A program made the position numbers and the translations under genes. Of a stretch of 48,574 nucleotides of DNA, positions 41,073-43,681 are shown piece after piece; position 1 is the stretch's first letter, and each line of letters opens with the position of its first letter. A model generated the notes under the pieces. It was not told the DNA's origin and searched no databases. It was given only the letters and a program-made list of their open reading frames with translations. Origin of the DNA: Thiomicrospira sp. (lineage in GTDB: Bacteria; Pseudomonadota; Gammaproteobacteria; Thiomicrospirales; Thiomicrospiraceae); the NCBI RefSeq assembly GCF_014859555.1, contig NZ_JACUTY010000009.1, forward strand, positions 1-48,574, given 5' to 3'.

Positions 41073-41339
41073 ATGTTTGATGCTGAAGCTAAAGCAAAAA
41101 TCGTCGCTGAGTATGGCGCAAATGCAAACGACTCAGGTTCAACTGAAGTTCAAGTTGCCTTGTTAACACACCGTATTCAATACCTAACTGGTCACTTCAA
41201 AACGCATAAGCAAGACAATCACTCACGTGTTGGTCTATTGCGTTTAGTTGCTCGTCGTCGTAAGTTGTTAGATTACTTACACAGAAAAGACGGTCAGCGT
41301 TATTTAGATTTGATCGCACGTCTTGGCTTACGTAAGTAA
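41073..41339 (+). CDS. rpsO: 30S ribosomal protein S15
   Basis: 88 residues that bind the central domain of 16S rRNA. The conserved [21 protein letters not shown] and [12 protein letters not shown] segments are present. It has its own promoter and terminator ahead of pnp, the same rpsO-pnp order as E. coli. Confidence 0.97.
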
Positions 41340-41353
41340 GTTTTCAAGCTGCT

Positions 41354-41384
41354 AAAAAAGCCCCGCTTAGTCGGGGCTTTTTTG
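41354..41384 (+). terminator. Intrinsic terminator after rpsO
   Basis: A 12-bp stem: A run plus GCCCCG (41354-41365) with CGGGGC plus T run (41372-41383). Loop CTTAGT. Confidence 0.88.
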
Positions 41385-41479
41385 TAGGCGAAAGCCCAAC
41401 AAAGTCTGTACAATATGTAGCTGAATATAAAGCTGATGCTTTTGATTATTTAAACGATTTAACTGAAAACCCTTTATAA

Positions 41480-41563
41480 CCTGAATCCCTAAACCCATTC
41501 GCTTTTAACCCGCCACCAGGCCTGGTTAATCGGACAATTAGCCGGTGGTTTTAGGGATTCAGG
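41480..41563 (+). promoter_or_regulatory. Long stem-loop in the pnp leader (probable RNase III/PNPase control site)
   Basis: CCTGAATCCCTAAA (41480-41493) is exactly complementary to TTTAGGGATTCAGG (41550-41563). The enclosed 56 bases contain an inner CCACC/GGTGG pairing and one palindrome copy. In E. coli the pnp leader forms a duplex that RNase III cleaves, allowing PNPase to repress its own mRNA. Position and shape match that scheme; control here is inferred. Confidence 0.7.
41515..41526. repeat. Palindrome copy within the pnp leader hairpin
   Basis: Perfect 12-mer, flanked C...T, in the apical part of the leader stem-loop. It can itself fold, which would compete with the inner CCACC/GGTGG pairing. 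Confidence 0.9.
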
Positions 41564-41596
41564 TTTCCAGTTAAAGCAAGCAGAAAGGAAATTCTG

Positions 41597-43681
41597 ATGG
41601 CAAAACATGTAAAAAGCTTCCAATACGGACACCACACCATTACGTTAGAAACTGGCGAAATTGCACGTCAAGCGGATGGTGCGGTTGTTATTGGCATGGG
41701 TGATACCCGCATTTTAGTAACGGTAGTGAGCTCAAAAAAAGCCAAAGAAGGTCAAGATTTCTTCCCTCTGACCGTAAACTACCAAGAAAAAGCCTACGCG
41801 GCCGGTAAAATCCCAGGTGGGTTTTTAAAGCGTGAAGCACGCCCATCGGAATTTGAAACCTTAACCTCACGCTTGATTGACCGTCCTATTCGTCCATTGT
41901 TCCCGAAAGGTTTTATGAACGAAGTCCAAGTGGTTGCCACCGTTTTGGCTTTAGACCCAGATGCGGGTACGGAAGTGGCCGCTATGTTAGGCACCTCAGC
42001 CGCTTTAGCAATCTCAGGCATTCCGTTTAATGGCCCAATTGGCGCGGCGATTGTCGGTTTCCGTGATGGCGAATACATCTTAAACCCATCGGTTCAACAC
42101 CTTGATGAATCTGACTTAGAATTAAGTGTTGCAGGTACTGAAGCCGCCGTATTAATGGTCGAATCTGAAGCCAGCGAGTTACCGGAAGACGTGATGTTAG
42201 GTGCGGTTATGTTTGGACACCAGCAAATGCAAGTTGCGATTCAAGCGATTCGTGAGTTAGCAGAAGAAGTCGGTAAACCACGTTGGGATTGGCAGCCAGT
42301 CGCAGAAAACACCGAATTAAAAGACCAAGTATTTGGTTTAATTCGTTCAGATGTTGAATTGGCTTATAACATTGCCGACAAAATGGCGCGTTATGCGGCG
42401 TTAGATGAAGCTAAAACGAAGTTAATGCAAGCCTTGGCGGTGACCGAAGAAAACCCAGAGGGCGCGCCTGAGAAAGTATTAGAAGGCTTATTTGGTAAGT
42501 TGCAGAAAGACATTGTGCGCGGTCGTAGCGTAGCGGGTCAGCCACGTATTGATGGCCGTGATAACCAAACTATTCGTGCAATTGATTGTAAAGTCGGCGT
42601 GTTGCCAAGAGTTCACGGTTCAGCTTTGTTTACGCGTGGTGAAACTCAGGCGTTGGTTGTCACCACCTTGGGTACAGAGCAAGATGCTAAAATTGTTGAC
42701 GAATTAACTGGCTCTTATAAAGACCGCTTTATGTTGCATTACAACTTTCCTCCTTATTCAGTGGGTGAGTGTGGTCGTATGGGCACACCAGGTCGTCGTG
42801 AAATTGGTCATGGTATGTTGGCGCGTCGCGGTGTCGCGGCCATGTTGCCAACCTCAGACGAATTCCCTTATACCGTTCGTGTGGTATCAGAAATCACCGA
42901 GTCAAACGGTTCAAGCTCAATGGCGACGGTTTGTGGTACCAGCATGTCCTTAATGCATGCAGGTGTGCCAATCGCCGCACCAGTAGCGGGTATTGCGATG
43001 GGTCTGATCAAAGAAGAATCCGGCTTTGCGGTGTTATCTGATATTTTGGGTGATGAAGATCACCTAGGCGATATGGACTTTAAAGTGGCCGGTACCGAAC
43101 AAGGCATTACCGCACTTCAAATGGACATTAAAATAGAAGGTATTACCGAAGAAATCATGCAGATCGCGTTGGATCAAGCGAAAGCCGGGCGTTTGCATAT
43201 TTTGGCTGAAATGACCAAAGCGATCACCTCATCTAATACCGATGTGGCTGAAACCGCACCCCGTATCACCACGATTAAAGTGAAGCCAGAAAAAGTGCGT
43301 GAAATCATCGGTAAAGGTGGCGCAACCATCCGTATGTTAACCGAGCAATCGGGCGCGGTCATTGAGCTAGACGACGATGGTACGGTACGTATCGCCGCGG
43401 CCGATCAGTCGTGTGCAGATGATGCGATTGCACGTATTATGCAGATTGTCGCGGAACCAGAAATTGGTAAAGTGTATGACGCGAAAGTCGTGAAAATCGT
43501 TGATTTTGGTGCGTTTGTGTCTTACATGCCTGGTCGTGAAGGTTTGGTTCACGTTTCGCAAATTTCTGAAGAACGTGTGGAGAATGTCGAAGACTATCTA
43601 AAAGAAGGTCAAGACATCCAAGTGCGCCTAACTGAAATTGATAAACAGGGCCGTGTTAAGCTGTCAATCAAAGCGGTTTGA
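41597..43681 (+). CDS. pnp: Polyribonucleotide nucleotidyltransferase (PNPase)
   Basis: 694 residues. A 3'-5' phosphorolytic exoribonuclease of the degradosome. Two RNase PH domains (about 1-140 and 310-540) flank a helical domain, followed by KH ([19 protein letters not shown]) and S1 ([26 protein letters not shown]). AAAGGA lies upstream of the ATG. No palindrome in the coding region. Confidence 0.97.

Follow-up and report, generated by a model that had tools for sequence, protein, structure and literature searches.

In Escherichia coli, the pnp leader contains a stem that is cleaved by RNase III, after which the strand remaining in the duplex is degraded by PNPase and the mRNA is destabilised (PMC5371410, PMC8708148, PMC7866481). 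In this study, the corresponding leader was examined in a Thiomicrospira sp.; it lies in a window of 48,574 nucleotides, which is the whole stretch of DNA that was analysed. Relatives were compared at two levels: the own genus comprises nine genomes and the family 62, the order being represented by the same 62. The E. coli rpsO-pnp leader and the leader described here agree in the gene, the place, and the plan of a long duplex whose foot is invariant and whose apex varies. With a probability of roughly 0.65, we regard the latter as a cis-regulatory RNA of pnp that would set the PNPase level via its long duplex and carry an apical palindrome as a neutral passenger. The features of the locus are as follows.

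41073-41339: rpsO; the Rfam S15 leader covers the gene start.
41354-41383, + strand: intrinsic terminator of rpsO, 5' of the pnp leader (12-nt perfect inverted repeat with a U tract).
41409-41414, + strand: TACAAT, a -10-like box assigned to a putative promoter of pnp (TANAAT pattern in leaders).
41458-41465, + strand: 5' strand of the outer helix P1, TTTAACTG, pairing with 41568-41575.
41466-41477, + strand: one-sided 5' bulge, with AACC (conserved) at 41468-41471.
41478-41488, + strand: 5' strand of the core P2, AACCTGAATCC, with CCTG.ATC columns invariant in 46 rows.
41489-41497, + strand: 5' strand of the covarying upper stem P3 (covariation, pair counts).
41515-41526, no strand assigned: copy of the palindrome ACCAGGCCTGGT within the variable apex (the genome has 660 exact copies, and none of the reversed string used as control).
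41546-41554, + strand: 3' strand of P3 (inverted repeat, covariation).
41555-41565, + strand: 3' strand of P2, GGATTCAGGTT, with GATTCAGGTTT invariant in 46/46 rows.
41568-41575, + strand: 3' strand of P1, CAGTTAAA (inverted repeat, fold, P1 permutation test).
41585-41589, + strand: Shine-Dalgarno-like AAGGA of pnp (sequence and fold).
41597-43681, + strand: pnp, polynucleotide phosphorylase, 694 aa (relatives compared; E. coli pnp is annotated behind the corresponding leader).

The hairpin spans 118 nt (41458-41575) between the rpsO terminator and pnp, and consists, in this order, of P1, the 12-nt one-sided 5' bulge, P2, P3, and the apex with the palindrome. An earlier note on this DNA had described a 14-bp perfect stem 34 nt before the pnp ATG, enclosing a 56-base apical region with a palindrome copy. 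The stem was found, and its dimensions required correction: the perfect part is 16 bp (AACCTGAATCCCTAAA at 41478-41493 with TTTAGGGATTCAGGTT at 41550-41565; 19 of 20 pairs when extended upward), it sits on the outer helix P1, which had gone unreported, and its 3' end is 31 nt from the ATG. The 56-base apical region (41494-41549) and the palindrome within it were located as described. When a 181-nt leader piece was folded, the energy was -52.5 kcal/mol as against a mean of -36.2 for shuffled sequences (z -4.15), and none of 200 shuffles equalled it; this result, together with the conservation and covariation in relatives described below, indicates that the stem is more than chance. The AACC of the bulge showed a pairing probability of at most 0.07 in the intact hairpin; accordingly, pairing of AACC would matter only after cleavage. 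By inspection, just three or four U stand behind the arm, and the hairpin was rejected as an intrinsic terminator.

The rpsO terminator was present in the nine leaders of the own genus. Of the 46 leaders with the hairpin, 44 have a TANAAT box 5' of it, compared with 30% of shuffles, and transcription of pnp is presumed to start at about 41421. The TACAAT at 41409-41414 was not among the promoters listed by a consensus promoter scan. A start downstream of 41480, which the earlier note had held to be incompatible with its reading, is not indicated, since the -10-like box lies upstream, the start itself being a presumed one. A small CAGAA/TTCTG hairpin (41581-41596), seen in the sequence and the fold, adjoins the Shine-Dalgarno-like AAGGA.

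The hairpin was called in a leader when both arms had at most two mismatches each from CCTGAATCC and GGATTCAGG and lay less than 150 nt apart. It was found in 46 of the 56 pnp leaders compared, with both 9-mer arms exact in 39 of the 46; the leader of G028, which was read because the hairpin model matched there, is additional to these. Five further genomes gave no match to the hairpin model: G009, G010, G011, and G052, where PNPase had no match at the cut-off, and G024, where the locus met a contig edge. Ten of the 56 leaders yielded no hairpin (G001, G002, G008, G012, G022, G046, G047, G048, G053, and G054). In G047, the arms had been matched automatically with 4 mismatches, 263 nt ahead of the start; this match was dropped, since just a 3' arm is in place there. 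By inspection, the leaders of G046 (L176) and G054 (L174), which lack the family arms, seem to bear other hairpins in that position, as though a replacement had occurred. In a tree of the 30 PNPase proteins that were obtained whole, the three own-genus genomes lacking the hairpin formed one clade (100/99) inside the bearers; hence, one loss in the own genus is the simplest reading. As judged from these leader sequences, the hairpin is a family-wide cis-RNA structure of the pnp leader that is missing from some branches.

The columns CCUG.AUC and GAUUCAGGUUU were unvarying in the 46 aligned rows, an invariance that is partly due to the choice of rows by near-match to the arms. In P3, 141 double-changed cells were counted as against 47.4 in shuffled alignments and 31-59 in slid controls, and the covariation score was 0.404 as against 0.137; none of 500 shuffles reached either value, with the alignment being structure-blind (MAFFT) and kinship inflating such counts. 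The number of P3 pairs with any double change was less striking (11 vs 9.5 shuffled; 30 of 500 shuffles). Furthermore, part of PMC8794818 indicates that template switching could yield double changes without selection on the RNA. P1 was misaligned by MAFFT, and the outer helix was therefore tested separately. Its mean duplex energy over the 46 leaders was -10.7, compared with -7.2 for permuted partners, and none of 5000 permutations was as low. All 46 leaders had an AACC in the 32 nt preceding the core, at a distance of 6 to 24 nt from it, as against 11% of shuffles. Covariation of the stem in relatives, which the earlier note had proposed as a check, was thus observed (0/500 shuffles), together with its conservation in 46/56 leaders.

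The family shares with E. coli the long duplex between rpsO and pnp, behind a presumed pnp promoter that was recognised by sequence. The homologous core of the E. coli type, GCGRCUA/UAGUCGY, was not found; the core of the family is CCUGAAUC/GAUUCAGG, and the AACC bulge is an addition relative to the E. coli leader. When 79 named proteobacterial leaders (80 sought; mostly gamma) were compared, the GCGRCUA/UAGUCGY foot was observed in 14, as well as in the E. coli leader read, whereas the family arms CCTGAATC/GATTCAGG occurred in none of the 79. A Citrobacter leader with the E. coli-type foot matched 5375 of 5426 E. coli genomes. The earlier note had placed the hairpin where E. coli has its RNase III duplex, with a different sequence, and this agrees with our comparison: the place is the same and the core is unrelated. 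The family leader may be an independent solution or the E. coli type diverged past recognition. In a survey of long helices, at least 14 pairs were found in 46/79 leaders and 20/79 coding pieces, a noisy metric given that 77/79 leaders had an equally long shuffle; at least 22 pairs were found in 20/79 leaders vs 8/316 coding pieces. The family hairpin suggests that different lineages of proteobacteria have a long duplex ahead of pnp whose sequences are unrelated, as if selection acted on the architecture rather than on the letters. The RNase III domain was matched in 58 of the 62 family genomes, including the own genome and all ten without the hairpin. Three of the four unmatched genomes bear the hairpin, and these are incomplete or fragmented assemblies (G006, G028, and G045; 83, 84, and 92% complete). 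CsrA, which we take to be part of the E. coli autoregulatory loop as a repressor of the processed mRNA, was found as a domain in 30/62 family genomes and in none of the nine genomes of the own genus; control by CsrA was accordingly rejected for that genus.

When up to 64 candidates were scored per genome, the best match of the hairpin model was located at pnp in 47 of the 62 genomes. A dispersed element was not supported, the listed DNA matches of the genus outside pnp being confined to the palindrome stretch and covering no arm. Four weak extras within the family (25.5-30.2 bits; G030:C1:912505, G014:C1:1758008, G047:C74, and G048:C232) had no pnp or rpsO. In G014 (L239), the extra is another hairpin, whose arms are again CCTGAATCC/GGATTCAGG. 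Those in G047 and G048 (L240 and L241), both genomes without the pnp hairpin, are terminator-like hairpins that share its arm letters (AGCCTGAATCCC, GATTCAGGCTTTTTT). In a class search of 369 genomes, four outside the family matched (one with E 3.3e-8 and three between 0.001 and 0.007), and no pnp or rpsO was present in the fetched loci, a result that covers the best 10 candidates per genome and does not prove absence. The match with E 3.3e-8, G263:C24:3767-3871 (L220) in another family, is a long hairpin before a non-pnp ORF, its arms being similar in part. Among the 80 named proteobacterial loci, 29 were run against the model; the single match was weak, at E 0.048, and lay downstream of pnp. 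Rfam 15 contained no family at gathering score over 41458-41575; matches at E up to 5 fell within 41340-41468, where two chance-level ones touch the outer helix, and none was at the core. No description of the element was found by title or abstract among the open-access literature matches listed. The element is a lineage-specific variant of the known pnp-leader kind; it could enter Rfam, and its core is testable.

The palindrome ACCAGGCCTGGT is far above chance genome-wide (660 vs 0 for the control), as HIP-like palindromes are. Its copies numbered 181-688 per genome in the nine genomes of the genus and were patchy in the family, where 21 of 62 genomes had none and the maximum was 718, with intermediate counts between. 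The window contains 22 exact copies, 18 of which are within ORFs taken as genes. HIP1-like palindromes (PMC4390886) are likewise short, have hundreds of copies, some of them inside genes, and are patchy among relatives, and they differ in sequence and phylum; a term search of that paper found neither AGGCCT nor Thiomicrospira. By inspection, ACCAGGCCTGGT contains CCAGG and CCTGG, which are Dcm-type sites. The Vsr mismatch endonuclease was not supported as its maker (5/62 genomes; 0/9 in the own genus).

Orthologous sites with 74-90% identity around them were exact in 13 of 19 aligned cases in G005, where the leader copy has one mismatch. The corresponding counts were 3/6 in G004, 3/6 in G007, and 2/4 in G001, a strict count in which the leader sites of G004 and G007 were scored as lost via alignment gaps, yet exact copies are present there. 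All six own-genus hairpins have the palindrome in the apex (5 exact, 1 with a mismatch) with differing flanks, and so do those of G030 and G043, which we read as at least two separate gains. Among the 24 hairpin bearers with at least 84 copies, however, 16 apexes lacked it and eight had it (7 exact, 1 mismatch); hence, the presence in relatives about which the earlier note had asked extends to the own-genus hairpins, G030, and G043 and not to the other 16. The mean pairing probability of the core was 0.980-0.999 and, in 8/8 leaders, stayed the same to the third decimal when the palindrome was held single-stranded instead of being left free. The earlier proposal that the palindrome could alter the structure is not supported by this result. 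Since core pairing was unchanged, 16/24 apexes lacked the palindrome, and copies elsewhere were comparably kept, it looks like a passenger, tolerated rather than recruited. It would sit where the leader RNA tolerates many sequences, a genome-wide iterated palindrome inside a regulatory RNA without predicted harm.

PNPase autoregulation via RNase III is probably the best reading of the hairpin. By analogy with E. coli, RNase III would cut the leader duplex, PNPase would erode the 5' strand still paired to the new 5' end of the mRNA, and the bared pnp mRNA would then be degraded, so that PNPase would limit its own synthesis. On the other hand, 10 of the 56 leaders have no hairpin though all ten genomes encode RNase III. 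Moreover, the near-fixed core and the AACC exceed the needs of a generic RNase III duplex, and a sequence-specific binder may therefore matter more. Such a protein, either PNPase via its KH/S1 domains or another, would read the core and the AACC bulge and repress translation or direct decay, with RNase III being secondary. The invariant GAUUCAGGUUU and CCUG.AUC, from 46 arm-selected rows, and the AACC in 46/46 leaders go beyond what a duplex needs and speak for this explanation, which we nevertheless consider unlikely: invariance alone is no proof of binding, E. coli-type leaders share an invariant foot, the leader of E. coli itself being an RNase III substrate (PMC5371410), and the nine own-genus genomes gave no CsrA match. 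Only tentatively can the core and the bulge AACC be proposed as a protein-read or strand-exchange element, namely a second RNA solution to PNPase autoregulation that works without CsrA. The AACC could pair with GGUU of the 3' strand, and the distal AACC would re-clamp the 5' end of the mRNA during erosion by PNPase; if true, this re-clamping would be a built-in delay in the autoregulatory loop. Alternatively, the core and AACC could be a direct landing site for PNPase.

The hairpin could also be the body of a trans-acting small RNA cut from the rpsO-pnp region, with the invariant arm as its seed. The near-invariant core would fit a seed, and the E. coli cleavage site is listed under psrO in PMC5371410; however, conservation and pairing extend to both arms, the apex is free, and the best match lies at pnp in 47 genomes, and we consider a small RNA very improbable. 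A DNA-level inverted repeat, an operator or a recombination site with no RNA role, is slightly less probable still. The inverted repeat is indeed near-perfect, and G030 and G043 have their apexes in opposite orientations. Beyond the core, the first eight pairs comprise 293 Watson-Crick, 42 G.U, 9 A.C, and 24 other cells, whereas 199.8, 50.1, and 25.4 of the first three kinds were expected when partners were shuffled within columns; A.C is thus depleted like other mismatches and G.U nearly kept, as in RNA of the pnp sense. The raw difference of G.U minus A.C (33) was reached by 62 of 2000 shuffles and is largely base composition, and after this control the strand test is only moderate. A DNA repeat is further opposed by the G.U at the foot of the core in 36/46 leaders, by the one-sided bulge with a pairing outer helix, and by the score of the pnp strand (69.2 vs 39.1 bits for the opposite strand), though the model was built on the pnp strand. 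It is also highly doubtful that the palindrome was recruited into the leader RNA, as the earlier note had suggested, so that its presence tunes the apex. Its presence in 6/6 own-genus hairpins (one with a mismatch) and in G030 and G043 favours recruitment, as do the seven exact apex copies compared with 0.126 expected at the genome-wide density, a contrast that relatedness and the choice of cases inflate; the palindrome may have some preference for the apex. Nevertheless, 16 of the 24 palindrome-rich genomes have the hairpin without the palindrome, core pairing is unaffected without it, and other copies are kept at orthologous sites as well (13/19 exact in G005).

The 46-nt apexes of G030 and G043 (L181 and L182) were identical at 45 of 46 positions when one was taken as the reverse complement and at 25 of 46 when compared directly, whereas the flanks matched in the same orientation (246/262 and 144/150 aligned columns). 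A second inversion suspected by eye (L152 vs L163) was not among the best 14 reverse-complement scores. G007 has a perfect inverted repeat of 50 nt around its apex, centred on the palindrome. Both the flip and this repeat would fit template switching between the arms. In the loop inversions covered by part of PMC8794818, the loop is likewise inverted between unchanged stems; those loops are typically four and up to eight nt, whereas 46 nt are inverted here. The G030/G043 pair is thus a clean natural example of relatives that differ by the flip of a hairpin apex.
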